From contig MWCI01000001.1 of assembly GCA_002069965.1 (NCBI GenBank), forward strand, positions 62,001-126,000: a DNA stretch of 64,000 nt, in the 5' to 3' direction. The position numbers and the translations under genes are program-made. Below, one piece after another: positions 44,546 through 53,262 of the stretch. The notes below the pieces were generated by a model. The model had not been told where the DNA came from. It ran no database searches and saw only the letters and a program-made list of their open reading frames with translations. How positions within the stretch are numbered: position 1 is the first letter of the stretch; each line of letters begins with the position of its first letter. Origin of the DNA: Spirochaetes bacterium ADurb.Bin218. Lineage in GTDB: Bacteria; Spirochaetota; UBA4802; UBA5550.

Positions 44546-45061
44546 ATGATCAATCTTTCAAATAGAGAAAAGAATTTAATAATAGTTTTAATCTCTGTAG
44601 TAATTCTTGGAATTTTTTATACATTCATTATTTCTCCAGTTGTGGAATTTAAAAAAAATGCTGAGCAATCATTCGTTAAAAATATCTCTCTTTTAAATAA
44701 GTTTGAAGAGATTAACAATGAGTATAAGCTGGTTCTGGCAGAAAAAAGCAGATTGAGCTCTGCCTCTGGTATGGGAACAGGTATAGCTGGACTTGTTGAT
44801 GAAATTTCTAAGAGCTTGAATATTGCAAGCAATCGAACTTCTTTAAAAGAAATGCCAGGTATAGTTCAAAATGGTTTGCAAAAAATAACCACCGAGATTC
44901 GCTTTGAGGGGATTTCTATTCAATCTGCTCTTGAGTTTATAAACAGATTGGAAAATTCTAATATGACTCTCAAAGTAAAAAATGTAGTTATTAATTCAGC
45001 CATAAAAGAAAGAAGTCGTTATGATATTATAATTACTGTGGTGAGTTTAACAAAAAGATGA
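44546..45061 (+). CDS. gspM: Type II secretion system protein GspM
   Basis: Inner-membrane protein of 171 residues. The short cytoplasmic start with NREKNLIIVLISVVILGIFYTFII is the GspM/PilO-like anchor. A coiled segment and a ferredoxin-like C-terminal domain follow (IQSALEFINRLENSNMTLKVKNVVIN). Position after gspL and a 4-base ATGA overlap with the next gene fit the operon. Sequence conservation in this family is low, so context carries much of the call. Confidence 0.88.
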   Translation: MINLSNREKNLIIVLISVVILGIFYTFIISPVVEFKKNAEQSFVKNISLLNKFEEINNEYKLVLAEKSRLSSASGMGTGIAGLVDEISKSLNIASNRTSLKEMPGIVQNGLQKITTEIRFEGISIQSALEFINRLENSNMTLKVKNVVINSAIKERSRYDIIITVVSLTKR

Positions 45062-45942
45062 ATATGAAGATCGAAAATATTTTGGCTTATTTAAAGTCTC
45101 TGAGCTACTCAATCCCTGCATTGTTTAGGAATGTTAGGAACTCTCCTTATGCAATCTTTTATCTTTTTCTTTCTCTCTTTTTAATAGTGCTATTTACTAT
45201 TGTTACATTTCCTTTTGATCATTTAATTAGAAAAAAACTCTCTGAACTGGAGGGCAAATCCTTTAGAATTATATCTGTTGATCAAATAGATGTAAATTTT
45301 CTGCGACCAAGCAATGTAAAAAAACTGGAGCTTGTGCTCCTTGATGGGACAGAGATCAATACAAAAAATGTTATTTTAAATCTATCCCTTAATCCCTATA
45401 GATTGTTTATAAGTCATCGTATTCTTTCTGATGTTCAGGTTGATGATTTTTTTTATAAAAGCAATAGCAATACTATAAGTCTTAATCTCAACGGCAATGT
45501 CGACCTAATCCTTGATCCTAAGAATAACATTCCAACAAATGGCGATGTTAAACTAATTTTTTCAGAAGTTAAGATAAAGCCCGATAAAATTTCTATTCCT
45601 GGCCCCATGGGAAACATAGATCTAAATATTGAATTGATCACCATACCAAATGGAGTTTTTTCTATGGATATTATAAACTCTACTGCCAGGATAAAAGATT
45701 TAAAACTGACAGGCCCTGAGTTAAACTGCACAATTGCAGGATCTATTGCTATGGTAAGTCCTATTGAAAGGAGTAACCTCAATTTAACTTTGATAATAGA
45801 TCCTGAGTCATCTATTTTGGAAAACTATCGTGATCTGGTGAAGATGATGACTAAAAATAATCCTTTAACTCTTACCCTAACAGGTACAATAGATAGGCCA
45901 AAATTGCAGCTTGCAGGAGTTGAAAAAACAAATGAAAATTGA
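45058..45942 (+). CDS. gspN: Type II secretion system protein GspN (Leptospira-like type)
   Basis: Single-anchor protein of 294 residues with a membrane segment near residues 28-50 (YAIFYLFLSLFLIVLFTIVTF). The periplasmic part has LKKLELVLLDG-like strands and a late NPLTLTLTGTIDRPKLQLAG that resembles the AsmA-type beta repeats of GspN. The layout fits the GspN family first described in Leptospira. It overlaps gspM by 4 bases and the IspH-UbiA gene by 11. It closes the secretion gene set; no gspO prepilin peptidase follows. Confidence 0.85.
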   Translation: MNMKIENILAYLKSLSYSIPALFRNVRNSPYAIFYLFLSLFLIVLFTIVTFPFDHLIRKKLSELEGKSFRIISVDQIDVNFLRPSNVKKLELVLLDGTEINTKNVILNLSLNPYRLFISHRILSDVQVDDFFYKSNSNTISLNLNGNVDLILDPKNNIPTNGDVKLIFSEVKIKPDKISIPGPMGNIDLNIELITIPNGVFSMDIINSTARIKDLKLTGPELNCTIAGSIAMVSPIERSNLNLTLIIDPESSILENYRDLVKMMTKNNPLTLTLTGTIDRPKLQLAGVEKTNEN

Positions 45943-47656
45943 GATGGCAAAAAACTCAGGATTTTGCATGGGAGTTCGCAACGCTGTTATAAAAATTGTA
46001 GAAGAGCTAAATACCTCTGATGAGGAGATCTATGTCTATGGTCCCCTCATCCATAATCCTCAAACAATAGAGGTATTAAAAAATCGAGGACTTATTACAA
46101 TAAATTCTCTTGATGATATAAAAGGCAAGTCTGTTGCCATAAGAACTCATGGCATTCCTGTTGATGAAAGCAGGTATATAAAAAATGAAGCCTCAAGAAC
46201 AATTAATCTTACATGCTCACGAGTTGCACGGGTCCAATCTTATATAAAGAAATTTTCATCACAGGGATATTTTACTGTTATTGTTGGAGATAAAGATCAT
46301 GCAGAGGTAATTGGGTTAAAAAGCTATGCAAGTTCAGGAGTCTTTGTGGTATCTGAACTTGAAGATGTAGCGAATTTGCCTGAGGCAGAAAAATACCTTG
46401 TGGTTTCTCAAACAACACATGAAAGAAATCACTTTGAACAGGTAGTAAAACTCATAGAGAAAAAAAATAAAGATGTCCATGTTATAGATACAATCTGTGA
46501 CTCCACAAGACTCAGACAGGATGATGTTCATAATGCCATTGCTCGTGGAATTGATACATTGGTGGTTGTCGGTGGAAGAAACTCTGCAAATACAACCAGA
46601 CTGGTTAAAATTGGAATTGATAATGGAATAAAGACCTTCCATGTAGAGACAGACGAAGAACTTAATCCAGAAGATTTTGCAAACTCTAAATATGTCCTTG
46701 TAACTGCGGGAGCATCAACTCCTGGCTGGATAATCAACAATGTCCTTGAAAGGCTCTATATCATAAATAATACAAACAGCAATTTTTTTGTAAAACTATT
46801 AAACAGATATATGGAATTTTTTGTGCGTAGCAATATCATATCCTCCATAGCTGCATTTTTGATGGTCTGTATTGCCAGATCTTACGGAGGATTAAAATTC
46901 GACTACAGGCATGGACTTATTGCATCGCTTTTTATATTTGTTATGTATACTGTTAATAATTATCTTGATAGGGAATTTCTGATTAAAAGTAACTCTTATA
47001 AATATAAGGTTTATGAGAAATATGGGAAATCACTTTTATTCTTTGCAATTATTGGCTTTTTTTATTCCATCTATCTCTCTTACAGTATTTCACCTGTTAT
47101 GACAGGGCTCTTTTTGCTTCCTTACATACTGGGCATATTATATTCAACTCCTCAGTGTAAATTTTTTGTAAAAGGACTTGGAATAGATTTCATAAAACGA
47201 CTTTACAATACAAAGGCTGTGACAGGTTTTGGATGGCTAATTGTGCTGGTATTTATTCCCTATTTTGGTTATAAAGTTTCTATGTTGACATATCTATCCA
47301 TCTCTGCGTTGTTTTTTGCTATTTTATTTATGCGACAATTTATAATTGATCTGGTTGCTTTTCAGGGGGATCTCATACTTGGAAGAGATACATTACCAAC
47401 ATCCCTTGGTATAAAAAGGGCTATTAAAATGACTCTTGCTATAGCTATAGCAGGTGCACTTATATTCTCTGCAATAACAATATATCATGGTAATTGGCTT
47501 TATCTTTTGCTTAATTCCTCTGTTCTCTATTATTATTTTCTACTGAGAAAGATTAAAGAAACAGCATATTTAGTATCCATAAGATATGAGATATTGATAG
47601 ACCTAAATTTTGCTCTGATGTTTTTGTGCTATTTAGCTACAGGATTACATTTTTGA
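45932..47656 (+). CDS. ispH: Fusion of IspH (HMBPP reductase) and a UbiA-type prenyltransferase
   Basis: Residues 1-280 are a full 4-hydroxy-3-methylbut-2-enyl diphosphate reductase, last step of the MEP pathway: 4Fe-4S cysteines C12 (GFCMGV), C95 and C189 (DTICDSTRLRQ); substrate residues H41, H73, H123/E125 (DHAEVIG), QTT, GGRNSANTTRL and GASTPGW are all kept. Residues 290-574 form a polytopic UbiA-like domain. The second aspartate motif DLVAFQGDLILGRDTLP (473-489) is intact; the first is weak (NNYLDREFL, 342-350). UbiA enzymes move prenyl groups onto acceptors in the membrane. ATG 45932 overlaps gspN. A single uninterrupted frame joins both parts. Confidence 0.92.
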   Translation: MKIEMAKNSGFCMGVRNAVIKIVEELNTSDEEIYVYGPLIHNPQTIEVLKNRGLITINSLDDIKGKSVAIRTHGIPVDESRYIKNEASRTINLTCSRVARVQSYIKKFSSQGYFTVIVGDKDHAEVIGLKSYASSGVFVVSELEDVANLPEAEKYLVVSQTTHERNHFEQVVKLIEKKNKDVHVIDTICDSTRLRQDDVHNAIARGIDTLVVVGGRNSANTTRLVKIGIDNGIKTFHVETDEELNPEDFANSKYVLVTAGASTPGWIINNVLERLYIINNTNSNFFVKLLNRYMEFFVRSNIISSIAAFLMVCIARSYGGLKFDYRHGLIASLFIFVMYTVNNYLDREFLIKSNSYKYKVYEKYGKSLLFFAIIGFFYSIYLSYSISPVMTGLFLLPYILGILYSTPQCKFFVKGLGIDFIKRLYNTKAVTGFGWLIVLVFIPYFGYKVSMLTYLSISALFFAILFMRQFIIDLVAFQGDLILGRDTLPTSLGIKRAIKMTLAIAIAGALIFSAITIYHGNWLYLLLNSSVLYYYFLLRKIKETAYLVSIRYEILIDLNFALMFLCYLATGLHF

Positions 47657-50025: not shown

Positions 50026-50925
50026 ATGTCAAAAGAATTACTATTTGATGAACTACTTGAGATAAGGGAAAATCTCAAAAATAGCATAATCCCCAGTGAA
50101 AAATCCTGGAATCTGCTTAATGAGATAGAGAAAAAAATCAACCTTGACAGAGGGGATAGACAAAAGAGAGAGCTGCCTTTGATTGAAAAAATTTTTGCCA
50201 GCTTCAATCTTCATAATTTTGCAGACTCAACTGCCTTAATTAAAAAGTCATCACCAGTAGTAGAGGTGATCCATCACTGTGGTAGCAATATACTTTTAGC
50301 CGAGACTAAGACCTATCTTGAGGATGATCACTCCTTTTATAATACTATAGATAGTGTAACAATTGCTTCCACTAAATATAATCTTTTTTTTAAAGAATTC
50401 TCTGTTAAAGATGAAAGCTATGCAGTGCTAACATGGACATCATCAAGTTCTTTTGATATTCATAAGCTTGATAGTTTTTGTGATGTTATAAGCGCTTTCA
50501 TAAAACATTCTGCTGTCACTCATAGTTTTTTTTATGATCTTATGGAAAAAATAGATTCTGATTTTCATAATACTCTTGCTCTTTTTAGTAAATCAAGCCC
50601 CAGTATAATTTTAGTTAAGTTTGATTTTATTTTTGAAAATTCCATTAATACATTTATTGGAATTTCAAAATACATCTCCAGTTTTTTAAGGGAGAACACA
50701 GGTGATAATTCTTTTGTTATACCTCTCTCCTTCAGCTCCTATCTCATAATTGCTCCACAGGAGGATGAGTCACTTTTGATAAAGAATTTTATTTCATCAA
50801 AAAAATTGAGCTTTAATTACAAAAATATATTGCTTCCTTATATGGCTTTGAAAATAGATTCCAATTCTTCGTTGTCTATATACGATATATTTGAGGATCT
50901 ATGCAATTTGATGAGATTATCGTAG
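50026..50925 (+). CDS. Unknown protein (299 aa), possibly a degenerate GAF-GGDEF-type protein
   Basis: No family is recognised with confidence. The protein is soluble. Residues about 70-165 could be a GAF-like fold (SPVVEVIHHCGSNILLAET ... YAVLTWTSSSSFDIHKLDSF). Residues about 190-299 have a faint GGDEF-cyclase rhythm: VKFDFIFENSINTFIGISKYI, then SFSSYLIIAPQEDE where GGDEF would be. If so, all catalytic residues are gone. The gene is 15 bases behind folC and its last 9 bases overlap the convergent GpsA-fusion gene. Confidence 0.65.
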   Translation: MSKELLFDELLEIRENLKNSIIPSEKSWNLLNEIEKKINLDRGDRQKRELPLIEKIFASFNLHNFADSTALIKKSSPVVEVIHHCGSNILLAETKTYLEDDHSFYNTIDSVTIASTKYNLFFKEFSVKDESYAVLTWTSSSSFDIHKLDSFCDVISAFIKHSAVTHSFFYDLMEKIDSDFHNTLALFSKSSPSIILVKFDFIFENSINTFIGISKYISSFLRENTGDNSFVIPLSFSSYLIIAPQEDESLLIKNFISSKKLSFNYKNILLPYMALKIDSNSSLSIYDIFEDLCNLMRLS

Positions 50926-53241
50926 ATGTCTTTTAACTATCTCAGCTCTTTGAGATACTGCTTCTTTGTTCAGAGATTCCCAAAAATCCCCTTTTCGCTG
51001 GATCAGCTTATGCTCCAGTAGAAATTTTATACCTCTTGAGGCAATATCCTTATAGCTCCCATCAAATTTTATTGGGTATTCACTTAAAAATCTTTCAACA
51101 TATTTTTTTATCTTATGGGCTTTCAAAAGATGATTTTTTCTATCAAGTAATGCACAGATTATATGATGTGGCAAAATTATTTCATCAGCAATCCATGACT
51201 CTGTTACAACATCTGTTATATCTATACCGGCATTTGCCTCCCTTGTAAAATCAGAAAGAAAAAATAAATCAGAGAATCTCACATGAACTGGTTCGGAAAA
51301 TTCTTTTCTCACTGTGTTTTCATCAAATTTTTCTGGATAGGAAAGCTGGCATGGAACAAGGGCTATTTCAGTTGACTCCTTAAACATAACACGAGTCAAA
51401 ATAGAAAAAAAACTATTATCAACTGGAGATATATCAAAATTTTTTTCGGGATACTCCTCGGGGAAATATAGAAGATTGACTCCATGGGAGATTAAGGTCG
51501 ACAGATATTGAATAACACATTCTCTATACACAGGGTTATTGAATCTTCTTTTATCTATTATAAATCCACCGCTTTTTTTAATCAAATACTTGTGGAGTAT
51601 CCCGCTAATATTTTCAGATGGAACATAAAAACGGGGAAGAGGCAGTTCTTTTTTATATATTGAAAATAAATAGTAAAAGTAGTCCTTTAAATTTTTAAAT
51701 CTTGCAACGTATATGATGTTTACTCTATCCTTAAGATTTTTAATATTTGAAAAATTACCTTTAATTTTTATTTTATTGCGGCTGCCGGTGATTTTATTGA
51801 GAATATATTTGCTATAGGAAAATTTTAGAAAAAGGTTGGAAAAAAAAGAGTTATTATAATCAATGATTTCATCTATATATAGAGCGCTCAGTTTTTTCAC
51901 AAATTTTGGATAGTTATACAGTGTAAGTTCAGATATATAGGCAAATTCATGACCAAGAGAGATTTTGCCGCTTTCTTTTAAATTTTTAGCTGATTCTTTT
52001 AGTTTGGTTATTATATAATTTTTATTTTCAGTTGAATTGTCTTCTCTGGTAAATTTATCAACTACACTTTCAAGAATAATCTTTTTAAAAGCCTTACCCT
52101 TCAGGGTTTCAAGGCCAATCTTTTTCTCTTTTACGTGGAGTTTTGCATAAGAATAGATTTCATTAAATTTTTCTGGATTCTTTATAGTTTCAATTAAAAG
52201 CGACGGTTCTTTTTTGTTAAGAAGAACCTCATAAAGGGATCTATATACAGGTATATCTATTGATTTCTTTGCAGCCAGCTCAATCAAGGGCTCTATTGCA
52301 TAAGCACCCTCTGCAAGATAGTTAAAGTTGCTACTTATCTTCTCAAGGACATATTCAGGTTTAAATTTTAGATAGATTTTATCTGTCCAGGAAAGAGTTG
52401 TTCCCCTCTCCAAAATTTTTGTTGCAACTTCTCTTCCAAAGCGTCTGTTTCTGCTATGTTCGCTTAAGGCTGTAGCAACAAGGTCCCCTGCACCTGCAAT
52501 GTCAATTATAGTTTCTGGCTTTGCACCAAGAGCTGTGCCCAGTTTATACATTTCTTTAAGTGATTCTGCAATTAAGGCTCCCTCAAGATTATCACCACAC
52601 TTTGGCAGAACGCTTATCATACCTGCAGCTATTGCAGCTGGATTTTTTAATGTCCCACCGAGATCTACCCCTATAATATCATCACTTTCCCTGCATTGAA
52701 AGAAATCGCAGTTAATTAGACTCACAAAAATTTTACGATCTGCTTCTGAGTGCGAGGCAACAACTATACAGGTATGAAAGTATTTAGTCACTTCTTCGGC
52801 ATGGCTTGGTCCATAAATGCCAACAACTCTCCCCTTGTAATCGGGAATAATTTGTTCAATAGTTTCTGAGATGGTCAAAATTTCATTGTTGAACTTGCAA
52901 AAACCCTTTGTAAGATAAGATATGGGTATTTTTTCTATTAGCAAATCCCCTACTTTTTTGACTGTATCAGGAATAACCTTTGATGGTGTTGCTATAATAA
53001 GCGCTTCTGAATTTGATATTGCATCTTTTAAATTATTAGTTGCCCACATGTTAGCTGGCAGAGGAACACCAGGTAGGAATTCGCTGTTAACCTTTTTATT
53101 GTTTATGGAGTTTACTGTAGATTTTTCATAAGCCCACATCTTAACAATAATTCCTGGGTGATTTTCTGCTATGACCTTTCCCACAGCAGTTCCCCAGGAA
53201 CCTGCGCCTATGATTGCTATCTGTTTTATTTTTTTTTGCAT
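50917..53241 (-). CDS. gpsA: Glycerol-3-phosphate dehydrogenase (GpsA) fused to a PlsB-like acyltransferase domain
   Basis: Residues 1-355 are NAD(P)-dependent glycerol-3-phosphate dehydrogenase: GAGSWGTA dinucleotide motif, GPSHAEEV, catalytic Lys 200 in LGGTLKNPAAIAAG, and GAGDLVATALSEHSRNRRFG. An insert of about 20 residues lies near 285-305. Residues about 385-774 resemble the PlsB family: GGFIIDKRRFNNPVYRECV (559-577) matches GAFFIRRSF...LY, and FPEEYPE the EGGRSR block. The HxxxxD catalytic motif is lost: the aligned segment reads ARFKNLKDYF (514-523), Asp kept, His replaced by Phe. ATG 53241 (GTG 53244 is an alternative). It follows rpoD by 21 bases. Confidence 0.88.
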   Translation of the reverse strand: MQKKIKQIAIIGAGSWGTAVGKVIAENHPGIIVKMWAYEKSTVNSINNKKVNSEFLPGVPLPANMWATNNLKDAISNSEALIIATPSKVIPDTVKKVGDLLIEKIPISYLTKGFCKFNNEILTISETIEQIIPDYKGRVVGIYGPSHAEEVTKYFHTCIVVASHSEADRKIFVSLINCDFFQCRESDDIIGVDLGGTLKNPAAIAAGMISVLPKCGDNLEGALIAESLKEMYKLGTALGAKPETIIDIAGAGDLVATALSEHSRNRRFGREVATKILERGTTLSWTDKIYLKFKPEYVLEKISSNFNYLAEGAYAIEPLIELAAKKSIDIPVYRSLYEVLLNKKEPSLLIETIKNPEKFNEIYSYAKLHVKEKKIGLETLKGKAFKKIILESVVDKFTREDNSTENKNYIITKLKESAKNLKESGKISLGHEFAYISELTLYNYPKFVKKLSALYIDEIIDYNNSFFSNLFLKFSYSKYILNKITGSRNKIKIKGNFSNIKNLKDRVNIIYVARFKNLKDYFYYLFSIYKKELPLPRFYVPSENISGILHKYLIKKSGGFIIDKRRFNNPVYRECVIQYLSTLISHGVNLLYFPEEYPEKNFDISPVDNSFFSILTRVMFKESTEIALVPCQLSYPEKFDENTVRKEFSEPVHVRFSDLFFLSDFTREANAGIDITDVVTESWIADEIILPHHIICALLDRKNHLLKAHKIKKYVERFLSEYPIKFDGSYKDIASRGIKFLLEHKLIQRKGDFWESLNKEAVSQRAEIVKRHLR

Positions 53242-53262
53242 CACAAAACTTTGTAGTTGTAA

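Follow-up and report, generated by a model that had tools for sequence, protein, structure and literature searches.

The IspH-UbiA gene and its surroundings

The window, by which the whole 64,000-nucleotide stretch of analysed DNA is meant, carries on its forward strand a gene for a protein of 574 amino acids (45932-47656), which runs from ATG to stop as one uninterrupted frame. The features of this locus are the following.

45058..45942, + strand: gspN-like gene of 294 aa that closes a type II secretion operon; its final 11 bases, stop codon included, are also the first 11 of ispH
45932..46756, + strand: IspH (HMBPP reductase) domain, residues 1-275 (PF02401, TIGR00216)
45965-45967, 46214-46216 and 46496-46498, + strand: IspH cluster cysteines C12, C95 and C189, invariant in 43 fusions
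46757..47653, + strand: short linker and UbiA-fold membrane domain, residues 276-574 (PF01040, hhalign, fold match)
46955..46981, + strand: first Asp motif in degenerate form, NNYLDREFL (residues 342-350); N342 corresponds to AfUbiA N68 and D346 to D72, and L350 stands at D76
47141..47143, + strand: Y404, equivalent to AfUbiA Y139, which is the best-conserved residue of UbiAs; present in 43 of 44 fused halves and in 18 of the 18 ordinary UbiAs in which this position is filled
47213..47215, + strand: K428, a basic residue particular to fused halves (Lys in 40 of 44; mostly His or Leu in ordinary UbiAs)
47333..47335, + strand: R468, a second basic residue that marks out the fused halves and lies shortly ahead of motif II (Arg in 42 of 44; hydrophobic in ordinary UbiAs)
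47348..47398, + strand: second UbiA motif DLVAFQGDLILGRDTLP, residues 473-489; D480 invariant, no Asp at 476, D-x6-D layout

The Pfam family PF02401 (LytB/IspH) covers residues 3-275 with an E-value of 9e-80 and 268 bits against a cut-off of 24.5 bits, and the NCBIfam IspH equivalog TIGR00216 is passed with 260 bits against a cut-off of 188. Along with the three cluster cysteines, residues H41, H73, H123, E125, S218, N220 and S262 are invariant in the 43 fusions. In the C-terminal half, PF01040 (UbiA) matches residues 331-536 with an E-value of 2.1e-6 and 27.6 bits, under the gathering score of 34.2, which a relative from Glassbacteria (P0003) clears with 46.5 bits. No hidden stop was found between residues 275 and 295, and relatives at 42-62% identity read through. 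The initial annotation had described a complete IspH whose frame continues into a UbiA-type membrane half, and this description is borne out: with IspH N-terminal and a UbiA-like membrane domain C-terminal in a single frame, the protein is a genuine IspH-UbiA fusion in which IspH is complete.

Fusions of this type have been known since 2015, when Rao et al. reported 47 IspH-UbiA fusions, all from sulfate reducers, and suggested that the two halves are linked in function, as the initial annotation also did (PMC4746011). The initial annotation's remark that no characterised protein of this form was known is therefore superseded, the form having been published with the same reasoning. The full-length fusion protein could not be expressed in that study (PMC4746011).

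Another two-domain frame lies on the reverse strand of the window (50917-53244), where glycerol-3-phosphate dehydrogenase (PF01210/PF07479) is joined to a C-terminal acyltransferase (PF01553). This GpsA-PlsC-like fusion would combine two successive phospholipid steps, and GpsA-PlsC-like genes are also found near the IspH-UbiA gene at three other loci (L034, L056 and L058).

Fold and active-site residues of the membrane half

A profile of 44 fused halves was compared with a profile of 20 ordinary UbiAs drawn from the sampled genomes, and hhalign aligned 240 columns with an E-value of 3.7e-5, in agreement with the UbiA similarity claimed at the outset. A PDB sequence search with the half returned weak matches alone, the best being chlorophyll synthase (E 0.02). 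Modelled alone in AlphaFold2, the half has nine main helices at low confidence (mean pLDDT 57.5). Using this low-confidence model, the best 12 Foldseek matches all belong to the UbiA superfamily (DGGGP synthase with E 6e-4, AfUbiA, ApUbiA), and VIA-align gave Z of 13.0-13.3 over 241-257 residues against AfUbiA, ApUbiA and UBIAD1, with soluble-type prenyl synthases next at Z of about 10. For helical bundles a Z near 13 is weak by itself, so the UbiA claim is carried by the sequence profile and the agreement of Foldseek. In a full-length AlphaFold2 model built with four sequences the IspH part is good and the membrane half poor, and the docking of the domains is not readable. As judged from the profiles and the model of the half, the membrane half is a UbiA-derived nine-helix domain.

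In AfUbiA the metal ligands are N68, D72, D198 and D202, with only an indirect role for D76; R22 and K146 sit at the diphosphate, and Y139 is found in 97% of UbiAs (PMC4106721). Residues of the fused halves were counted by the hhalign map, in which the 44 sequences are 43 fusions and L061. N342 is kept in 40 of these 44 and D480, the equivalent of D202, in every one. The first motif of the fused half is not NDxxDxxxD: its second position is mostly N, position 346 is D or E in 23 of 43 fusions (22 of 31 within the window's order), and position 350, which equals D76 by spacing and is gapped in the hhalign map, is L, I, M or F in 43 of 43. The initial annotation had called this motif weak, and the leucine in the place of D76 agrees with that. 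Its identification of DLVAFQGDLILGRDTLP as the second motif stands as to the invariant D480, but the segment is not a textbook DxxxD; position 476, the equivalent of D198, is Asp in only 3 fusions, and D/E473 and D480 form a D-x6-D layout instead. D346, D473 and K410 are also present in the window protein.

Two simpler descriptions of these motifs were given up. Motif I had been taken as simply lost, which was revised as N342 and D346 align with metal ligands. A476 had been taken as proof of inactivity, and this was dropped since ChlG is also without that Asp; an active chlorophyll synthase shares the D-x6-D layout, so that the missing middle Asp is no proof of inactivity.

All of 17 diverse halves, which are 16-21% identical to the reference row, keep Y404, K428 and D480, and nearly all keep R468, G401, I482 and G484. 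With pocket residues persisting at about 20% identity, the pocket is constrained, but what is being preserved is not the textbook two-metal site. These residues bear on the view of Rao et al. (2015), who proposed that the half is an active prenyltransferase with a non-quinone acceptor, fed by the products of IspH and by downstream prenyl diphosphates. The presence of Y404, N342, D480 and K410, together with D346 and D473 in the window protein, speaks for such an activity, as does the chlorophyll synthase precedent. In the opposite direction point the missing third Asp of motif I in all 43 fusions, the non-acidic residue at position 346 in about half of them, and the fact that EcMenA loses function when the residues matching D72 and D198 are mutated (PMC4106721). 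On balance, an active prenyltransferase of this kind is possible but somewhat unlikely. The acidic residue at position 346 in most members of the window's order suggests that the halves of this order may be catalytic.

Distribution, apparent losses and quinone genes

A search of 59 relatives found the fusion in most members of the same order, at 42-62% identity over about 565 residues and with no stop. A survey of 390 sampled genomes of the phylum yielded about 60 full-length fusions, in six groups: the window's order (families f1, f2, f4-f7), f15, f42, f29, f17 and f32 (one genome). The fusion is therefore not an artefact, and a sequencing error or frameshift was ruled out as its origin, as the relatives are uninterrupted and the fusion is common in the phylum. 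Scanning genomes with peptide patterns turned up just three relatives: two near ones, Spirochaetae bacterium HGW-Spirochaetae-5 and Spirochaetia bacterium UBA5550, and a Candidatus Glassbacteria record (34% identity), which has the fusion as well. Within the sampled phylum, wherever the fused half is strongly matched, the match is part of an IspH frame; the one exception is a short frame truncated by a contig end (G018). The fusion type was confined to sulfate reducers in the 2015 account and is here found to be widespread in Spirochaetota. The category itself is ordinary; what is new here, and what gives the finding its value, is this taxonomic extension together with the motif pattern of the membrane half.

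Five genomes of the window's order that are 85-95% complete (G002, G003, G011, G024, G037) gave no match to the IspH-fusion query at E 1e-3, either fused or stand-alone, for which either missing contigs or another isoprenoid route would account.

In a FastTree tree of IspH domains, the 43 fusions group with four other sequences at weak support (0.32). Three of the four are IspH without the half: L052 and L054, both of family f3, and L053 of f15. The fourth, L061 from IMG/VR, is labelled stand-alone in the tree, yet is itself a fusion-like protein of 544 aa with a very degenerate half. L052 and L054 are sister to the fusions of the order (0.95), and their IspH gene still stands after gspN. L053 (4959-5885) is nested in the f15 fusions (0.99), and the DUF4912 gene that comes after those fusions comes after it too. 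A remnant of the UbiA half was looked for beside these three IspH genes, and none was found. The tree is most simply explained if the half was cleanly lost at least twice, which suggests that the half is useful but dispensable.

The L061 fragment (1049-2683 of IMGVR_UViG_3300032018_000387) is filed as viral; its genes include RadC-like, IspH-UbiA-like and deaminase ones, and it resembles a piece of bacterial chromosome. A stand-alone relative of the fused half was seen at L104 (G085:C247, 214-1074); it matches the profile at E 3e-30, and its NRFTDIRED and DIRDVIGD motifs are both intact. It adjoins a geranylgeranyl-reductase-like gene and a KaiC-like ATPase, on a contig that looks like archaeal contamination in a metagenome-assembled genome. 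This gene hints that the fused half may have descended from an archaeal-type lipid UbiA.

These apparent losses bear on whether the half is a membrane anchor or scaffold for IspH and nothing else. Within the window's order the half diverges faster than IspH (33% against 62% identity), it was lost in f3 and L053 with IspH retained, and it is very degenerate in L061, all of which would suit a mere anchor. Set against this, Y404, K428, R468 and D480 are nearly invariant at about 20% overall identity, and their conservation, with that of G401 and G484, is more than an anchor would need. Such a restricted role is thus judged improbable.

In the window's order the fusion usually comes directly after gspN, where a type II secretion operon ends, as it does at seven further loci (L034, L035, L056, L057, L058, L059 and L060), and the neighbours in f15 differ from those in this order. 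At L044 (f32), the fusion frame is preceded, at a distance of 37 bases, by the end of a polyprenyl synthetase gene (PF00348, E 1.2e-64), which would suit a half that couples precursor supply to prenyl chains as well as one that transfers them. Across the compared loci, no gene for a candidate acceptor recurs beside the fusion, and this counts against transfer.

The window genome (3.03 Mb in 160 contigs, 96.6% complete) has the fused IspH as its single IspH, and also holds one further, ordinary UbiA (182 bits) and MqnA/D-type genes. In six f15 genomes searched, PF01040 had no match outside the fusion, and the MqnA/MqnD family (PF02621) was not found in them either; these genomes do have polyprenyl synthetase. 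The fused half therefore persists independently of quinone genes, as far as these profile searches indicate. The UbiA fold would by itself allow a quinone prenyltransferase of the MenA, UbiA or MqnP type. This role is highly improbable, given the separate ordinary UbiA of the window genome and the f15 genomes with neither another UbiA nor MqnA/D. The f15 genomes are single-contig, probably from cultured organisms, and their only UbiA is the fused half; with no quinone UbiA to confound a phenotype, they offer a clean system for finding the function of the half.

Proposed function and comparison with known systems

The reading we prefer, at a probability of roughly 55%, is that the half tethers IspH to the membrane and has a binding site for a prenyl (di)phosphate, coupling precursor supply to its use at the membrane, without being the quinone prenyltransferase of the cell. 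The N-terminal half would convert HMBPP to IPP and DMAPP, while the nine-helix UbiA-fold half would anchor IspH at the cytoplasmic face of the membrane. A prenyl (di)phosphate would be bound in the old UbiA pocket, whose metal ligands are altered, and precursor supply would thereby be coupled to the making or use of prenyl chains. We infer tethering, binding and coupling alike, and slightly favour a half without ordinary prenyl transfer over one with it, in line with the initial annotation's suggestion that the half may bind rather than transfer. Since IspH occurs without the half twice inside fusion clades, the coupling would be dispensable. A bolder reading, offered tentatively and as rather unlikely, is that the half is no ordinary prenyltransferase but a re-tooled prenyl-(di)phosphate site with one metal plus K428 and R468. 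Such a site would sense prenyl lipids, or handle them, and control IspH at the membrane, much as UBIAD1 does for HMGCR, and it would be kept in spirochaetes without the known UbiA or MqnA quinone routes.

UBIAD1 is also the model for a purely regulatory role, in which the half would sense an end-product prenyl diphosphate and regulate IspH. The cited accounts describe UBIAD1 as a GGPP-using UbiA protein that exerts control over HMG-CoA reductase, an enzyme of the mevalonate pathway which it binds and whose degradation it inhibits (PMC8641950, PMC6402834). UBIAD1 is among the best structural matches of the half, and fusion to the MEP-pathway reductase is formally parallel, a UbiA-fold protein being tied to an isoprenoid-pathway reductase in both cases. 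The parallel is one of analogy, however: UBIAD1 and its reductase are separate proteins of the mevalonate pathway, and regulation proceeds through protein degradation. Pure sensing is accordingly thought quite improbable.

Compared with the archaeal members of the superfamily (AfUbiA, ApUbiA and DGGGP synthase), the spirochaete half shares the fold and the aligned active-site Asn, Tyr, Lys and last Asp. It differs in its degenerate motif I, in the absence of the first Asp of DxxxD, in the added K428 and R468, and in its fusion to IspH. The active chlorophyll synthase ChlG (9sau; NDFKSVEGD) has the same D-x6-D without Asp at the middle position. Rv3806c (DPPR synthase) is a UbiA-fold phosphoribosyltransferase that works with one Mg2+ plus lysines (PMC10994848), a precedent, by analogy only, for basic residues replacing a second metal; its structural match is weaker (Foldseek E 0.15, VIA Z 11.4), the likeness being by fold alone.

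The closest known systems are the fusions of Desulfobacterales and other sulfate reducers (PT_UbiA_5; Rao et al., 2015, PMC4746011). For these, two DXXXD repeats were reported; by comparison with that published description, NNYLDREFL and DLVAFQGD are without the full DXXXD spacing, as the spirochaete half has neither an Asp at 476 nor the third one of motif I. The host here is a spirochaete, while the arrangement is the same in both, with IspH N-terminal, a UbiA-like domain of about nine helices C-terminal, and a second UbiA elsewhere in the genome, as in the window genome.
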